This document shows, one piece after another, positions 14,551 through 23,273 of a stretch of 64,000 bases of DNA. The notes under the pieces were generated by a model. The model was not told the DNA's origin. It did no database searches and saw only the letters and a list, made by a program, of their open reading frames with translations. The stretch covers positions 4,046,501 to 4,110,500 of the forward strand of contig NZ_CP119421.1 of the NCBI RefSeq assembly GCF_030506305.1. Reading direction: 5' to 3'. Origin of the DNA: Porifericola rhodea. GTDB lineage: Bacteria; Bacteroidota; Bacteroidia; Cytophagales; Cyclobacteriaceae. Both the position numbers and the translations under genes were made by a program. Numbering within the stretch: the first letter of the stretch is position 1; every line of letters starts with the position of its first letter.

Positions 14551-14667
14551 ACGGGGTTGCGCCTTGTAAGAAAATAAGTGAGTTCGTACTTTTCTGTGTG
14601 CCATGAATGTGATGAAATTTTATCATATTGATGGGTGTTAAGCACATATGTTCTAATACAGATTGGG

Positions 14668-17600
14668 ATGAAAAAGAGAAAAGTTCGTAAATGGATATGG
14701 TGGATATTAGGTACTTTGGTGCTATTAATAGCTGCTATTCAAACGACTCTACTTTTCTTTGGAGATGAGCTTTTTAAGGAGTCTGTACTCTTAGGATTCA
14801 GGCAATACAGCGAGCGTAATTACCACCCCGAACAGCGGCCGAGTCTGAACTTTGACGATCTTAGCATTAATATATTTACTGGTAATCTTTCTGTTACCGG
14901 TCTTCATTTTACCGGATACATTCATTCAGATAGTAGTAGTTCGTCTGCGGCTGATCATCTGGATATGTATGTCCAGAAGGCAGAGATACTGGATGTGAAT
15001 TTTCTAAAATTTTATAAGAGCGGACAACTTGAATTGAATGAGATAATCTTTGAGCAGCCTGAGATTACATGGATAGGTGCGTCCTCAAAATCATTAGATC
15101 GCCCTGGTACACAGCAAAGAATTGACTTACTTCAGCAGCAGCTAACAGAGGATATACAGTCATATGTTCGTTCATTCTCATTCAATGCATTAAAAATAAG
15201 AAATGGTAACCTCTTTATTACTGAGCAAAATGCTAAGCAGAATAAATCTTCCGGGTTGCATAATAAATTCCACGCTCAGAAAATAAACATCACATTAAGT
15301 GATTTCTTGATTGACTCTGCCAGCTACCTCCGTAAAGACAGGCTACTTTTTACAAAAGACATAGACATACAGTTTGCAAATTATCAGCTCTCTGCAGATA
15401 GTTTGTACTTAATAAAAGCTGATACCCTGGGCTTTTCTACCCTAAGTCGTGAAATTTATCTCAAAGATGTTCAGCTGTTACCAGTCAGTGATCATAGTGG
15501 CAATACTATTAATGCTAAAATTCCCTTCCTAAGTCTGACCGAAGTTAACTGGCAAGACTTATACTTTGAGGATAAACTAATCAGCAACCAACTTCTAATA
15601 GACGATGCTTCAGTCTTAGTAGAAGTACGAGCAGATAGTCTGAAGCAGCAAAATGTTTTTCGTTTTGCATCGCTAAGTGCGGATAGCCTTTACCAAAAAT
15701 TAGGTGGAAGGTTTAAGAGTTTACAAATCAATGATGTAACTATAAGGCGAGCGCAACTCAGTTTGATTGATTTAAGCGAAGAATCGCTGGAAATTGCTAA
15801 AGTAGAAGATATAGAGATGCTGCTATCAAATATTCAACTGGATTCTACCCTTCAGTTGGATAGTTTACAAAAAATTTTGCCGGCAGATAGTGTCAGCTTA
15901 CTTGCAAAAAATATCAAAGTCTACTTACCCGATCGTCGTCATTCTTTTATGACAAAATCAGTAAGCCTAAATACAGCTAGAAGCCGAGCTTTTGCCTGCG
16001 ATGTGTTTTTTGACTCTCTGAATTTCAATGCTGGAGTAGATTCTCTGGAGCAGTTACTTAGAGATCTTCCAGACCATCCACTTACTTTTGATGTAAAGTT
16101 GCCATCGCTTTCTTTTTTCGGAATTCAGCTTCAGGCATTGGCCCATCATAAAGCTGCGCTGCTGGATAGTATTTATGTACAAAAGCCTAGGGTGAAAATC
16201 GCAAATTTTGCTGAGCAGTCTTTAGGTAAACTAGCTGCCGGCAGATCAATAGTAAAGTCAGGTACTATTACAGATGAAGTAGAGAGTGTCAAATCATTGC
16301 TATATGATTGGAGTAATGCGAAACTAAACTTATACCCGCTCATTGCTCCAGGCGATACTTCGGCTCTTTTTCAGTGGCTAAGAGCAGGGCAGCTACAGAT
16401 TGACTCCGGACAGGTGGAAGTTTTTAAGGTAAACAGTGATACTACTGCATTTACGCAGGTTACTGCTATAGATACCTTTTACGCTTTTCTTAATAATATC
16501 AGTATAGATGAGCTAGAAACTGAAAGCAAAGAGTCTTCCGATGGAAAAGTAGCTGTTTTAGCATCGGATGTTGATTTGTTTGCTCAAAAAAATACTTTCC
16601 TGCTACCTGGCGAGCGTGGTGAAGGAGGATTGCTAGAGGTTCAAGATATAAAAATCTCAACTTTAAGCGAAGAGGCGTATTTTACAAATATATATTTCTG
16701 GACCAATCCGGGCAGGCCTCCTTCTTCTGAAGTATGGCTTCACGAAATGTATATTCCTCGCGTACAATTTAGCCAGGTGGACCTAAAAAAGATATATACT
16801 GAACAGGACGCTGAGATAGCACGGTTATCAGTCTATTCTCCTCAAATCACGCTGAATTACAAATACAATCAGCAAGCTCAAAGAGATCAAAAGTTCAATT
16901 ATACTAATCTCTACCCTCAACTTTCCTCTTATCTGGACCGACTGTATTTACCTTCTGTAAATGTTGTCAATGCTCAGCTGAGATTGCAGCAGATTAACGA
17001 AAGAGGGGTGGAGCCTCTTTTTGTAACTGAGAAGCTAGATGTGAATATGCGTGGTTTTTATCTGGACTCCCTTACCAGAATGAATCGTCTGCGTCCTTTT
17101 TATGCCGATAAGCTAAGTGTAAAAGCAGAAGATTATCAATGGCACTTTTATCCTGAAGATGATACCTATCCTCTACTTGGAGTAAAGGGTGGTCAACTTA
17201 GGTATGACTCTCAACTCGGAGAATTAGAAGCTGGCCAGATTACGGTGGTTAGTAATACGGCCAACAAGTTGGGATTGGAAGAACTGAAACTGGGGTGTAA
17301 CAAAATTATGGCGGATGATATAGACCCTTACCGCCTTATTCATGATCAAGCTCTGGACGTGGGTAGGGTAATGATCTACCAGCCTAACTACCAGGTAGTA
17401 GAAAATAAGCTGACCGAAAGAGTGAAGAAAAAGAATGAAGCAGATAGCCGGCAGTTCTTGCAGCCTGACCTGAACAGTCTTCTGAACAAAAATTTAAAAA
17501 ATATACGATTAAGGTATGTAGGTGTAGAGCAGGGAACTGTAACCTACCTACAGAAAGAAGCCAAAGACACCCTGGCTTGTGTAAAAGTTACGGCTATAGA

Positions 17601-19272
17601 TTTTAAAGCAAGACAGCTAAAAGTAGACGGTAGTCCTGAGCGGCACATGCATAAAATTTTATATGCCGATGAAATAGACTTCAGCTTCTTTGCAGATGAC
17701 ATTAGAGTAAAAAAAGACGATAAGAGCCAACAGTTGAGAATAGATGATGCGTATTTTTCAAGCAGAGATTCTCAATTAAAGATTGAGAAGCTACAGTTTG
17801 TGCCTCCTCCTGAACTTTACAAGTATCAAGACAAAACACACTTTGCCCTAGACGCGTCTTCGCTCCACATTCAAGGATTGAATTTCAAGAGAGCTTATTT
17901 ATATGGAGATTTTAACGTACAACATCTTAATATTGAAGAGTCGGCCCTTAAAGTCTATGTTGGACATAATTCTGCTGCTAAAGAAGGCTCTCATGCATCC
18001 ATACATGAAGTTATTTCACCATTTCTAAGCAATATTAAAGTAGAAAAAATTAACTACCCTCAAAGTAGCCTTCATGTTTACGACAAAGAAGACCAGTCTA
18101 TGCGGTTTTCTTCCTCAAAAATTAAAGCAGATATTTCTAATTTTTACGTAGATCAGTCTACATTTTCTTTACAGTTTGGGCCTCAGCAAAACTCTACGGC
18201 TCGTATGTTCTTCTCTGATGATATAGATATCAGCATTAAAGATTTTAGTAGAGTTATTGATAACGGTCTGTACAAAATCTCCGCAGACGCAATACGTATT
18301 AAGTCAGGTGATAATAAGATTCTGGTTGATGGACTAAAATTAGAACCCTTGTTAAGCAGATCACAGGTATTAGAAAGGTATGCTTACAGCAAGTCTATAG
18401 CACAGCTGTATTCAGACAGGGTAGAACTACAAAATGTTGACTTTAAAGCATTAATGGAAGAGGAGAAGTTAATTGTAGGAAAAATTAATATTTATGAGCC
18501 TAGTCTGGAAGTTTATCGTGATAACCGTCTACCCCGTAACCTGAAAAAAAATCCTGCTTTGCATCAACAACTTTTACTTAATCTTGATCAGCAGCTAAGT
18601 ATTGAAGAGCTTAATGTATTTGATGGGCTCATTACCTATGCTGAACGTACTGCAGCTGGAGAAGAAGCTGGCCAAATCACCTTTGAAAACGTAAATGCGC
18701 AGGTGCTTCATCTGAGCAATTTACCAGAGGCTATTAAAAATAATACAGTAAGTACTTTGCATATCACTACCAAAGTAATGGGTAAGGGCCTACTGAATGT
18801 TCATTTTAGCTTTCCACTGGCAAGTCAAAATCTGGCTTTTCAGGCAAATGGTCACTTAGGAACTATGGATTTAAAAGCATTAAACCCTATGCTAGGGCCT
18901 GTAGCCTCAGTGCACATCAAAGAAGGTATTAATCAGAGTATGCGTTTTGAGTTTGAAGGCAATGAAGATAGGAGTGAGGGTAGCATGGAGTTTCGCTATA
19001 ATGATTTGAGCGTACAAATGATAGATCAGCAAAAAGGAAGAAGCGGCCTTGACGAAAAACTTGGTACTTTTATAGCTAACGCTTTTGTACTAAAAGCTAA
19101 CAATCCTAAAGCCGTTTTCTTAAGAATAGGGAATATTAAGTTTGAAAGAGATAAAACACGCTCTATGTTCCATTACTGGTGGCAGAGTCTGCTTTCTGGA
19201 GTAAAATCCAGTATTGGTCTGGATAAAGACATGGAAAAAACTAAAGACTTTGCCGAACTGGATAAAAATTAA
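14668..19272 (+). CDS. Giant membrane-anchored AsmA/DUF748-like protein
   Basis: A 1534-residue protein with one N-terminal membrane segment (about residues 9-32: [20 protein letters not shown]) after a basic start, and a very long exported body of repeating beta-strand units. Recurring elements have the form L-x-[IV]-D-x-[AG]-x-[LV] or LYLPSVNV-like strands. The C-terminal 150 residues ([19 protein letters not shown], then [17 protein letters not shown]) resemble the AsmA-C/DUF748 end. AsmA-like proteins are thought to carry lipids between membranes. I chose the ATG at 14668 because the GTG at 14635 lies in a non-coding-like stretch. The stop codon overlaps the stop of convergent cca. Confidence 0.6.
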
Positions 19273-20708
19273 ACCTTGTTGACAGGTTTTAATCCTTTTT
19301 GGCGAGCCAACTCATACATATACTGGAAAGCCTCATCTTTAGAATTGCTTATTTTTCCATCAAGAATGGCCTCCCTAATTTCGTTTTTAAGGTCACCAAC
19401 AATTTTAGATGGCTTAACATCAAATATGTACATGATATCTTCACCGGATACCGGAGGTTGAAAATTTCTAACTTTGTCTTTTTCTTCTACCTCTTCCATT
19501 TTAGCCACGACCCTGTCAAAATTATTAAGGTACTTTTGAACTTTGTTAGGGTTTTTAGAGGTGATATCTGCACGGCAGAGCGTCATCAGGTCATCCACAT
19601 CATCACCAGCCTCATAAAGCAGACGCCGAATGGCTGAATCAGAAACTTCATCTTTGACAAGTGCAATAGGACGAAGGTGTAGTTTAACCAACTTTTGCAC
19701 ATATTTCATCTTCTGATCTAAAGGAAGTTTTAAGTTCCTAAAAATCTTGGGAACCATACGTGCGCCTTTATCTTCGTGTCCATGAAAAGTCCAGCCCACG
19801 AGTTTATCAAAGCGTTTGGTGGCGGGCTTAGCGATATCATGCAAAATTGCGGCCCAGCGCAACCATAAATCATCTGTATTTTCCGAGATATTATCCAGTA
19901 CTTGCAGAGTATGGTAAAAATTGTCTTTATGAGAGCGACCTTCAACAGTATCTACCCCTTTTAGGTCTACCATTTCAGGAAAAATCAGCTCTAGCAGCCC
20001 TGCATGGTATAGCAGTTTAAATCCGTAACTAGGTGTTTTTGTAAGAATGATCTTGTTCAACTCATCCGCAATTCTTTCACGAGATACAATCTTTATGCGA
20101 TTGGCATTGGATATGATTGCATCAAATGTTTTGGAGGTGATGTCAAATTTGAGCTGAGCAGCAAAACGAACCGCGCGCATCATTCTCAATGGATCGTCTG
20201 AAAAAGTAATATCAGGGTCCAAAGGAGTCTTAATCTGCTTACGTTTCAGGTCTTTTACGCCATCAAATGGATCTACCAACTGTGCGAAGCTATCCTGGTT
20301 TAGGCTAATAGCCAGTGCATTAATAGTGAAATCTCTGCGAAGCTGATCATCTTTAAGGCTGCCAGCACTCACTTCGGGCTTCCGAGAATTAGAACGATAA
20401 GATTCTTTTCGTGCTCCAACAAATTCTACTTCCCAATCCTGATAGCGGAGCATGGCTGTTCCAAAATTCTTGAAGACAGCCACATTAGTTTTTTTACCAC
20501 TCTGTTGTTCAATTAGGCTGGCTACTTCATTGGCCAGTTTTATGCCATCTCCTACGCAAACGACATCAATATCTTTAGAAGGCCTTTTAAGAATAAGATC
20601 CCGTACATAGCCTCCTACAGTATAGGTCTCTAATTTTAGCTTAGAGGCAGCTTCGGCAATGATGGTGAATACCGCTTGTTTATCTAATGCAGATTTGAAA
20701 TTTTTCAT
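19269..20708 (-). CDS. cca: CCA tRNA nucleotidyltransferase with HD domain
   Basis: A 479-residue enzyme that adds or repairs the 3' CCA of tRNA. Nucleotidyltransferase head: [12 protein letters not shown] near residues 29-40 and the metal-binding DID in KDIDVVCVG near 45. [13 protein letters not shown] lies near 120. A C-terminal HD phosphohydrolase domain has the motif AILHDIAKP near 255. The ATG at 20708 is chosen because a longer reading would start inside the promoter element at 20730-20737. The start follows the YrdC-like gene by 39 bases. Its stop overlaps that of the AsmA-like gene in a shared TTAA. Confidence 0.92.
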
Positions 20709-20729
20709 TCTTAAAAGGATCATTCTTCG

Positions 20730-20737
20730 CAAAGGTA
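20730..20737 (-). promoter_or_regulatory. Probable -7 element of cca
   Basis: Read on the minus strand this is TACCTTTG, an exact match to the TAnnTTTG element. It would start transcription about 15 bases before the cca ATG. The -33 element is weak (TTTTC rather than TTTG). Confidence 0.45.
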
Positions 20738-20747
20738 ATAAGAAGGA

Positions 20748-21239
20748 TTACCTTAGAAAAGTGAAGCTACCATCCTCAAAGAGTTTCATGACCTTTACCA
20801 CCGTATATTTACTGTCTTTTTCCCGGCAATCTACAGTTTCATCAATCAGAGCATCCTCTGAAAAATTTTTTGCTGCCCTAAAAGCGATTATCGGACCGTT
20901 TTTACGAACAAACTGCTTTAACTTTTCTTCTTTTACCAATCGGATGCTGATGAATGAGCTCTCATCAAAAGGTGTCTGGTATTTTTTATGGGGGAGAAGT
21001 AGCTCCAGAGGTTCTTCTGCATATTCTATCATTTCCCAAGCTAGTTCAGGTACCTGGCTAACGAAATAATGTATGTCCTCTTCTCTGTAAATGAGTATGC
21101 TATAATTAGGTGACTCATCATTAGAAGCACCAGCATTTGCTCTAATTCGTTCAATCGTATCTTTGGCATAAACGTGAGTACCAATCAGGGTTTCAGGGGT
21201 GTTCTTCAGAAGAAAAACTGAAGTGGTTTTAGTTTTCAA
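20748..21239 (-). CDS. Degenerate YrdC/Sua5-like domain protein
   Basis: A 163-residue protein that reads like a YrdC (threonylcarbamoyl-AMP synthase) domain without its active site. Visible correspondences: VPELAWEMIEYAEEPLELLLP (about 67-87; YrdC has ELAWKL...PGPLTLVLP), SSFISIRLVKEEKLKQF (about 100), GPIIAFRAAKNFSE (about 121, in place of the PLAATSANLSG nucleotide-binding motif), DALIDETVDC and KYTVVKV (in place of the C-terminal STVVDL). The KxRP lysine region is absent. Function is unknown. The start codon is TTG, as no ATG is available. It lies 28 bases after the kinase gene and 39 before cca. Confidence 0.55.
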   Translation of the reverse strand: MKTKTTSVFLLKNTPETLIGTHVYAKDTIERIRANAGASNDESPNYSILIYREEDIHYFVSQVPELAWEMIEYAEEPLELLLPHKKYQTPFDESSFISIRLVKEEKLKQFVRKNGPIIAFRAAKNFSEDALIDETVDCREKDSKYTVVKVMKLFEDGSFTFLR

Positions 21240-21267: not shown

Positions 21268-22503
21268 TTAAGATATAGAAATAGTATTTCCTGTTAAAGA
21301 AGGCAAAAGTATAGTAATTTTTGTTCCTACCGATACTTCGCTGGAAATAGATATATCTCCCCCTAGTTTTTCTACATTTGACTTTACAATAAAAAGCCCC
21401 AAGCCACTCCCTTTAGAGGCCGAATGCCCTCTGTAAAACATATCAAAAGCTCTGGACAAAACGTTGGCGTCCATTCCACAGCCATTGTCTTCAAAGTAAA
21501 ATAAGAGGTTCTTTTCTTTTTGGAGCGCAGAGATTTTTAAATAAGAATTTTTCTGTGCATTACCCTTAAAAGTATAAGCGTTTTCTATGATATGTTGAAA
21601 AATGGATATAACAAACTTCTTTCCACTGGTAATATACAAATCAGCTGCAACATCTACCTTTACTTTTATGCTGCTAGCCGCTGGGGATGAGGCATAGCTA
21701 TTAATTATTTCTTCCAGCAAAGGCTTTATAAAAAAGGTATTGAGCTCAAAACTTGGCTGAGTAGATAATGAGTATTCAAAAAGGTTAACAATAGTATGGT
21801 TTAGCTTTCCCAAGCTGTTTTTGATATGGGTAAGATAGTTTTGAACTGTAACCAAATCGTCCCCGGCCATTTCTGCTAGGTCTAGCAAGCCCATTACTGA
21901 GGCTACAGGCCCTTTTAAATCATGAGACACTTTATATACAAGCGTCTGCAATTCTGAGTTTTTTTGCTTGAGTGCATCGGCAGTCAGCAGTACCTGTTTC
22001 AGGTCTTTAGCCACCAGCACATAGCCCTGTACCTTGTTGTCATTATCTTTGAGCAATGAAAGTGAAGCAGAAACAGGTACAGTATGGCCGGAATGATGTC
22101 GGAATGAAGATTCTTGATTGTATAAAAATCCTTGATATGCAAGTTGGTTCTTCATAAGCTCAAGTGTTTCTTTTTCTTCTGATGGAAAAAGAAACGCTAT
22201 ATTTTGGCTTATTAAATCTTCTTGATGAAAACCTAATAGCTCTCCAACTTTGCTGTTAACTTCTTTAATTGAAAAATGCTTATCAAAAATGATAAGCATA
22301 TCCACTATACCTTCAAAGATGCTATTCAAATAGTTTTTAGCAATGACGGATGCTTTTAACTCTTCGCCCAACATATTTATGCCAGAGACAATAGCATCTA
22401 TTTCATCAAAACTATCTGAGATTTCTAAACTATGATTAAAATTCCCATTAGCAATTTCTAGGATAAGCGTATTGATATCCTCTATCCGGTCATTTACCTC
22501 CAT
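21268..22503 (-). CDS. Cytoplasmic PAS-domain sensor histidine kinase
   Basis: A 411-residue hybrid of sensing and kinase modules without membrane segments. Residues about 1-55 look HAMP-like (IEDINTLILEIANGNFN...). A PAS domain spans about 60-180 (FDKHFSIKEVNSKVGELLGF). The dimerisation helix has the phospho-accepting histidine in YKVSHDLKGPVASVMGLL near residue 193. The ATPase domain carries N-box NAYTF, G1 DNGCGMD and G2 GSGLGLFIV. It lies 2 bases after the preceding gene, with two small paralogues upstream, so all three form one operon. No response regulator is adjacent. Confidence 0.9.
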   Translation of the reverse strand: MEVNDRIEDINTLILEIANGNFNHSLEISDSFDEIDAIVSGINMLGEELKASVIAKNYLNSIFEGIVDMLIIFDKHFSIKEVNSKVGELLGFHQEDLISQNIAFLFPSEEKETLELMKNQLAYQGFLYNQESSFRHHSGHTVPVSASLSLLKDNDNKVQGYVLVAKDLKQVLLTADALKQKNSELQTLVYKVSHDLKGPVASVMGLLDLAEMAGDDLVTVQNYLTHIKNSLGKLNHTIVNLFEYSLSTQPSFELNTFFIKPLLEEIINSYASSPAASSIKVKVDVAADLYITSGKKFVISIFQHIIENAYTFKGNAQKNSYLKISALQKEKNLLFYFEDNGCGMDANVLSRAFDMFYRGHSASKGSGLGLFIVKSNVEKLGGDISISSEVSVGTKITILLPSLTGNTISIS

Positions 22504-22504
22504 A

Positions 22505-22882
22505 CTACAAAAACTTTCTCAACCACTTCAACGCATCTTGTTGATTCGAAAATACTTTATGAGGAATTTTAGGCTTATTAAAATTAAAAACGATTGTTGT
22601 TAGTACTTTTTCTACGGTACTGGTTTCTACCAGTGCTATAGCTGTAATGTTAATTAGGCCTTCGCTAAACAAATATTCTCGGGCCTGTTTGTCTATACTT
22701 TTTATACGTGAGCTTCTGATTAAAACTGGGGTTTTAAGATCCCCAAAATGCTCCAGGCGTTCAGATACAATACGTTTAGCATCTTCCAGCTTTAGGTGCA
22801 AGTTTGGTTTGTATTGTACCGTTACAATATTATCATTAAGTTCAGCATAAAAGTAGTCTGTTTCAAACTTGTTTGAGTTCAT
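22505..22882 (-). CDS. Small SpoIIAA/STAS-like protein (paralogue 2)
   Basis: A 125-residue soluble protein resembling the STAS/SpoIIAA-like fold. It has a beta-strand-rich start (YFYAELNDNIVTVQYKP), a central region of VLIRSSRIKSIDKQAREYLF type with a hydrophobic strand then a loop, and a final FNFNKPKIPHKVFSNQQDALKWLRKFL. It is clearly related to the next gene upstream, which has the same ending pattern [FH].KPK-P...F....A-K-W. It overlaps that gene by 20 bases, and its stop is one base from the kinase start. A role as a small partner or regulator of the kinase is suggested by context, not shown. Confidence 0.65.
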   Translation of the reverse strand: MNSNKFETDYFYAELNDNIVTVQYKPNLHLKLEDAKRIVSERLEHFGDLKTPVLIRSSRIKSIDKQAREYLFSEGLINITAIALVETSTVEKVLTTIVFNFNKPKIPHKVFSNQQDALKWLRKFL

Positions 22883-23273
22883 TATACTGAGGTTGTGTTA
22901 CCTTATATTCTGTAATCCACTTTTTGGCATGTCCTGTATCCTTAAAAAACCGGAAAGGGTATTTGGGTTGATGGAATTTAAGGAAAAAATTTCCCATTAT
23001 CCTCGTTACAGGATTATTTACTATCACAGCCAGAGCTAATAAATCATCTCCGGCATCACTAGAAAAGTACTCTCTGCTTTCTTTTGTAACCTCCTTAACC
23101 GTTGATATATAGGCAATTGAAGGATACTTCATCCCCTGAGTAATTTCCTTTCTGAAGGTGGTGGCTTTTTGAGCTGCATCAAGGTCTATACGAGAGACTT
23201 TATACCTCCCGAAAAGTATCCCATCTACAATATCAAATTCCACTACGTCGTTCTGGTACTTTAAAGTGTTCAT
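22863..23273 (-). CDS. Small SpoIIAA/STAS-like protein (paralogue 1)
   Basis: A 136-residue soluble protein with the same layout as its downstream paralogue: strands near the start (DIVDGILFGRYKVS), a central region SIAYISTVKEVTKESREYFSS followed by LLALAVIVNNPVTRIMGNFFLKF, and the ending HQPKYPFRFFKDTGHAKKWI. SpoIIAA-like folds often act as scaffolds or anti-anti-sigma-like partners. No phospho-serine site could be fixed by eye. It is first in an operon with the second paralogue and a PAS kinase. The upstream 120 bases are AT-rich without a clear promoter match. Confidence 0.65.
   Translation of the reverse strand: MNTLKYQNDVVEFDIVDGILFGRYKVSRIDLDAAQKATTFRKEITQGMKYPSIAYISTVKEVTKESREYFSSDAGDDLLALAVIVNNPVTRIMGNFFLKFHQPKYPFRFFKDTGHAKKWITEYKVTQPQYNELKQV

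Follow-up and report, generated by a model that had tools for sequence, protein, structure and literature searches.

Gene content of the locus

In the window (the whole stretch of 64,000 nucleotides of Porifericola rhodea DNA analysed here), positions 20748..21239 of the minus strand encode a protein of 163 amino acids that appears to be a pseudoenzyme derived from TsaC/YrdC (hereafter pseudo-TsaC), as judged by the open reading frame, the YrdC fold, the profile match and the loss of the catalytic KxR/SxN tetrad. The TTG start codon is in the identical position in both congeners (L005 and L006), whose orthologues are 55-56% identical to the window protein. Directly downstream, on the same strand, lies cca (19269..20708, with a possible TTG start at 20732), encoding a tRNA CCA nucleotidyltransferase with matches to PF01743, PF12627 and an HD domain; the best NCBIfam match of the product is TIGR02692, at 356.5 bits, under the curated cut-off of 438.8. 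TsaC helps make t6A on tRNAs, a modification whose synthesis is nearly universal, and the cca product adds the CCA ends of tRNAs. Convergent with cca is a very long open reading frame (14635-19272, plus strand; 1545 amino acids), the product of which we take, by its appearance, to be AsmA-like.

On the upstream side, a gene for a PAS histidine kinase (21268..22503, minus strand), a genus-level neighbour, ends 28 bases before pseudo-TsaC and is preceded by two consecutive genes for DUF7793 proteins (PF25056, SpoIIAA/STAS-like; 22505-22882 and 22863-23273, minus strand); of these, the kinase gene and the DUF7793 gene next to it are also conserved in the two congeners. An earlier note, made from the letters of the window, had given the coordinates, strand, TTG start, length of 163 residues and 28-base gap to the upstream histidine kinase correctly; what it had called a kinase operon does lie at this distance and comprises one PAS histidine kinase preceded by the two DUF7793 proteins.

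The kinase adjoins the gene only at L004-L007, that is, in the window genus and in genome G071, and was rejected as a general partner on that ground. At the G071 locus (L007, 1495-3219), the same kinase lies a few bases upstream of the TsaC-derived gene, and cca is not downstream, the next gene being convergent; the pseudoenzyme of G071 is linked to the kinase and not to cca. In the window genus and G071, pseudo-TsaC may have been recruited into a signalling unit, which is not a general arrangement.

Homology to TsaC and predicted fold

Taken alone, the window protein had no match in Pfam, NCBIfam or the PDB sequences, gave only a chance-level match in a PHROGs search, and found no relative in a single-protein scan of genome contigs. 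Homology to PF01300 is established through the family members and by profile-profile comparison, not through the window protein alone. In an alignment of the window protein with 14 same-family orthologues (A1), 8 of the 15 proteins individually match PF01300 (E ≤ 0.1; best E = 4.6 × 10−6). The A1 profile finds the Sua5 encoded in the same genome (E = 9 × 10−6), matches PDB Sua5 weakly and, in hhalign, is aligned with canonical Bacteroidota TsaC over the full length (probability 99.9, E = 3.2 × 10−36). When scores of this profile are compared, canonical TsaC of the nearest Cytophagales families reach 106-130 bits, more distant canonical TsaC (family f13) are lower, at about 23-60 bits, and the genome's own Sua5 and YciO-like paralogue (L002) score 26 and 17 bits, respectively, so that the protein is not nearer to YciO than to TsaC.

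An AlphaFold model of the window protein, for which the input comprised degenerate orthologues without canonical sequences, has a pLDDT of 86 and a pTM of 0.85 and adopts the twisted alpha/beta fold of YrdC. All of its top Foldseek matches are YrdC domains of Sua5, TsaC or HypF; in VIA-align, too, the top matches are all YrdC domains, with Pyrococcus abyssi Sua5 reaching Z 15.6 (157 residues, rmsd 2.8) and RibB, the first unrelated fold, Z 5.8. On these profile and model comparisons, the window protein belongs by descent to the YrdC superfamily. The reading that it has no YrdC fold, and that the resemblance first noticed is coincidental, could appeal to the lack of Pfam, NCBIfam or PDB-sequence matches for the single protein; we give it negligible weight, as the profile, the structure, the gene position and the graded intermediates point the same way, and the structural match (Z 15.6) together with the hhalign result (E = 3.2 × 10−36) rules it out. 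In copies of the type found in Algoriphagus, the model is only moderately similar to YrdC (Z 7.7, Foldseek E = 0.03) and the profile matches A1 at 98.4% and TsaC at 95.5%; homology there leans on profile and position more than on fold.

Loss of the catalytic residues

In P. abyssi Sua5 numbering, the ATP residues are K56xR58 and S143xN145, and the threonine residues are T33, S181 and R195 (PMC10321239). In the window protein, the KxR site falls within ANAGASND (residues 34-41, 21117..21140, minus strand), has neither the lysine nor the arginine and reads A36-x-A38. At the SxN site (RAAKN, residues 121-125, 20865..20879, minus strand), the triplet aligned by hhalign is R121-A-A, that is, R-x-A, and the segment after SAN is deleted; the protein is some 25 residues shorter than canonical TsaC, mostly after this point. 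The threonine-binding P-T-D-T loop is replaced by KNTPE (residues 12-16, 21192..21206, minus strand), in which N-T-P is conserved in the three congeners and G071. Among the threonine residues, T33 has become N and S181 has become V, and R195 is kept as the C-terminal arginine (S181 and R195 were read from the hhalign alignment, their columns being shifted in MAFFT alignments). The conserved arginine of the IxR strand (ISIRL) is also still present, as R100. A helix and turn typical of Bacteroidota TsaC (PELAWEMIEYAEEPL, residues 64-78, 21006..21050, minus strand) has been retained despite the loss of catalysis; this element is conserved in A1, altered in Algoriphagus-type copies, and present in many canonical TsaC across the class.

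The pattern extends well beyond the window. In the clade table, the tetrad is absent as a set from all 34 Cyclobacteriaceae copies (4 + 11 + 19) and from all eight degenerate copies of family f11, and is kept in 26 of 26 canonical copies; in the Algoriphagus-type copies, the SAN segment is lost entirely. Intermediates occur in f16 (G157) and in family f5, where SAN has become SAC or SAE. The f5 loci (L029, L030 and L047) encode complete or nearly complete TsaC, some of them with these changes, in what appears to be early erosion.

Thus, the window protein lacks the ATP-binding tetrad that defines TsaC/Sua5 enzymes, as well as part of the threonine site, and, read from its aligned residues, is very probably a pseudoenzyme derived from TsaC. 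The earlier note had recognised most of this. The YrdC resemblance that it described goes beyond chance, given the PF01300 matches of eight family proteins, the hhalign E-value and the AlphaFold fold, and the structure prediction that it proposed as a check indeed yields a confident YrdC fold by AlphaFold, Foldseek and structural alignment. The missing KxR is likewise borne out (A36-x-A38). Its reading of SAN as AAKN was displaced by one or two residues, with R121-A-A as the triplet that aligns, and its statement that the nucleotide and threonine sites are lost holds for the tetrad, T33 and S181; the equivalents of the IxR arginine (here R100) and of R195 are retained in the genus. All same-family orthologues examined share the loss of the active site, as it had anticipated.

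Linkage to cca

The general neighbour of the pseudo-TsaC gene is the downstream cca, not the kinase. In a first set of 16 Cyclobacteriaceae copies, cca is downstream of 14, and one of the other two runs off its contig; the same arrangement is found in family f11 and in the canonical families, and in most Cytophagales loci, canonical and degenerate alike, cca is directly downstream. Among 30 canonical tsaC loci from across the class, 18 have cca within about 1.5 kb, and all 80 named Algoriphagus-type loci (from Algoriphagus, Belliella, Echinicola, Indibacter, Cecembia and others) adjoin it. The tsaC-cca pair is an old one in the class, and, given this conserved adjacency, the window gene, which stands directly upstream of cca (19269-20732), is positionally the tsaC of that pair.

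In most Algoriphagus-type loci (L153-L232), the stop codon of pseudo-TsaC overlaps the start codon of cca in a near-invariant ATGA, which suggests translational coupling to cca; in the window genus there is no overlap, and the ATG of cca is some 40 bases downstream. The linkage is not universal, being missing in G071 (L007), f22 and f5 (g106). Furthermore, many Cyclobacteriaceae genera have no TsaC-like gene upstream of cca, and the absence of the gene from so many sister genera indicates that it is dispensable over long times.

Co-occurrence with Sua5

The window protein ends at the YrdC domain, without the C-terminal SUA5 domain (PF03481). Elsewhere, its genome encodes an intact Sua5 (L001; 324 amino acids, tetrad intact), which is the sole PF03481 match in the genome; the complete synthase that had been expected to exist is therefore present, as Sua5 and not as a second tsaC. 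Also encoded are the YciO-like L002 (222 amino acids), TsaD and TsaE, and a further member of the TsaD family that is consistent with TsaB and is a candidate for this component. With Sua5, TsaD, the TsaB candidate and TsaE at hand, t6A synthesis should not need pseudo-TsaC.

When genomes are compared by the state of TsaC, Sua5 (PF03481) is present in 50 of the 51 whose copy is incomplete (the one without it is a genome of 72% completeness) and in 6 of the 27 with a complete copy (Fisher p = 1 × 10−12, a value that ignores kinship and is not to be taken at face value). All 30 genomes examined at the position upstream of cca have PF03481, and a TsaC-like gene upstream of cca was recognised in none of them (one locus is cut by a contig end). 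On the tree of the CCA enzyme, the degenerate label requires 8 changes in the best tree, of which 2 are forced by well-supported branches; an independent-pairs test of the association had 2 supported pairs and hence no power. The association with Sua5 is strong but in part reflects shared ancestry, with few independent events. Erosion of TsaC is family-wide and probably took place more than once.

TsaC and Sua5 have been reported to co-exist rarely, and clear transfers to be followed by loss of the endogenous gene (PMC10321239). Because that survey retained only sequences with the KxR/SxN tetrad, pseudo-TsaC proteins would have been discarded there.

Selection on the degenerate copies

Pairwise dN/dS among degenerate copies ranges from 0.02 to 0.23 (0.018 and 0.038 for the closest pairs), with synonymous changes near saturation for the more distant pairs, and 18 columns are invariant across 19 divergent Algoriphagus-type sequences. 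For most of the same pairs, dN of pseudo-TsaC is about 2-3 times that of cca. In place of PTDT, each clade has a conserved loop of its own: NTP in the window genus and G071, EGNGK in the Algoriphagus type and ADETGWS in f11. The family f11 copies (L043, L046, L048-L051, L073 and L074) are a degenerate TsaC of their own, with conserved ADE for PTD and PFE for the SAN region, which by its sequence looks like a re-lined pocket. The PExAWDxxExAxKPL element is found in most degenerate copies, sometimes altered, as well as in many canonical Bacteroidota TsaC. The low dN/dS speaks against decay, as do the clade-specific motifs of the former substrate loop, and a decaying pseudogene was rejected on the dN/dS values.

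Discussion

We propose that pseudo-TsaC descends vertically from the short TsaC that is encoded beside cca in Bacteroidota. In Cytophagales lineages that carry Sua5, this TsaC is usually either lost or devoid of the KxR/SxN tetrad and of some of the nucleotide-binding segment; the takeover of t6A chemistry by Sua5 could have made its catalysis expendable. In several lineages the stripped form persists under purifying selection, usually adjoining cca. Being kept under selection, mostly in that position, it probably acts otherwise than by catalysis, and may be an adaptor or small partner protein in the maturation of tRNAs. The conserved helix and turn (PExAWD..E.A.KPL) would be its binding surface for another protein, and its re-lined old pocket would perhaps hold a small ligand. 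The likeliest partners would be the CCA-adding enzyme encoded alongside it or the machinery of TsaB/D/E and Sua5, and binding to either could allow formation of the CCA end and t6A modification to be coordinated. We assign this whole account, that of a vertically inherited, catalytically dead tsaC-cca descendant retained as a partner in tRNA maturation, a probability of roughly 0.55; the role as a non-catalytic partner, considered by itself, we regard as somewhat short of even odds.

Among known proteins, the closest is the short, single-domain TsaC/YrdC of Bacteroidota (L-threonylcarbamoyladenylate synthase; PF01300, EC 2.7.7.87), with which pseudo-TsaC shares the fold, a full-length alignment, the position upstream of cca, the PExAWDxxExAxKPL element and a C-terminal GxxxFxR strand. 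It differs from this enzyme in lacking KxR/SxN, in its replaced threonine loop, in being about 25 residues shorter with the post-SAN segment deleted, and in the presence of Sua5 in its genome. Sua5 (TsaC2; PF01300 + PF03481) has a TsaC-like domain of the same fold and gives the best structural match (Z 15.6), whereas pseudo-TsaC has no SUA5 domain, linker loop or tetrad, and an intact Sua5 is encoded separately. YciO, a TsaC paralogue, is likewise a YrdC-fold protein found in genomes with a functional t6A synthase without serving as such itself. However, YciO has a basic patch and retains most residues of the active site (PMC12506659), whereas pseudo-TsaC is acidic, has lost the tetrad and lies closer to TsaC (106-130 vs. 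17 bits), the YciO-like L002 being separate. The YrdC-like domains of HypF and TobZ/GdmN have the same fold as well but are catalytic, handle a nucleotide and form part of multidomain carbamoyltransferases, whereas pseudo-TsaC stands alone without the nucleotide residues.

Other roles have to be weighed against that of a tRNA-maturation partner, and two of them, a re-lined ligand pocket and a coupling cistron that acts mainly in cis, are serious competitors. The old active-site cavity, re-lined in each clade, might now have another small molecule as its ligand or substrate; in the window genus, for instance, the protein could be a sensor that cooperates with the adjacent histidine kinase. The loop motifs are indeed clade-specific (NTP; EGNGK; ADETGWS, with PFES for SAN, in f11), the IxR arginine is kept in the window genus and f11, and the kinase adjoins in the window genus and G071. 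However, conservation of the loops can equally be structural, the Algoriphagus-type copies lack the whole SAN segment and have a weaker modelled fold (Z 7.7), and the kinase neighbourhood is restricted to two genera, so that we consider this role possible but doubtful. An RNA-binding protein in rRNA or tRNA processing, as proposed for YciO, which has a conserved basic patch and is linked to rRNA maturation (PMC12506659), seems very unlikely: although the neighbouring gene encodes a tRNA enzyme, the protein is nearer to TsaC than to YciO and is acidic (pI 5.5, net charge −4; median pI 5.75 in the Cyclobacteriaceae set). Binding of RNA through bulk positive charge was rejected on this pI, and the RNA-binding guess of the earlier note is accordingly not supported.

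The gene could also be a relic upstream cistron, the translation of which delivers ribosomes onto cca by coupling, with the protein itself mattering little. The ATGA overlap with cca in most Algoriphagus-type loci, the complete loss in many sister genera, the common non-ATG starts and an evolution faster than that of cca are all in line with such a leader. Nevertheless, a mere leader would not be expected to show a dN/dS of 0.02-0.23 or to keep 18 columns invariant among 19 divergent sequences, the window genus has no overlap, with the ATG of cca about 40 bases downstream, and G071 retains the protein without cca; we therefore think a relic cistron improbable. The tRNA-maturation partner remains our preferred reading. 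The earlier suggestion of a non-catalytic TsaC relative, possibly repurposed, fits well with the fold, the shared loss of residues, the intact Sua5 and the selection, and repurposing itself gains indirect support from purifying selection and the clade-specific conserved motifs; that suggestion did not include the main context, and the origin from an ancestral tsaC-cca pair, the breadth across the family and the link to Sua5 are added here.

In the open-access literature, we found no earlier account of a catalytically dead TsaC that is retained next to cca. Compared with the pattern of gene loss (PMC10321239), these genomes show a TsaC copy that is often stripped of its active site, under selection and mostly beside cca. 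As regards annotation, no model in Pfam or NCBIfam fits pseudo-TsaC proteins well, and t6A synthase is a label that they could receive in error. They constitute a natural experiment in which a replaced housekeeping enzyme became a pseudoenzyme, with graded intermediates, and offer a direct way to ask whether TsaC acts beyond catalysis. It may even be, unlikely as we consider it, that the TsaC of Bacteroidota has a second, non-catalytic function tied to the CCA-adding enzyme, which alone was retained in several lineages after the takeover by Sua5; if true, the pseudo-TsaC copies would reveal that t6A modification and the maturation of CCA ends are linked.
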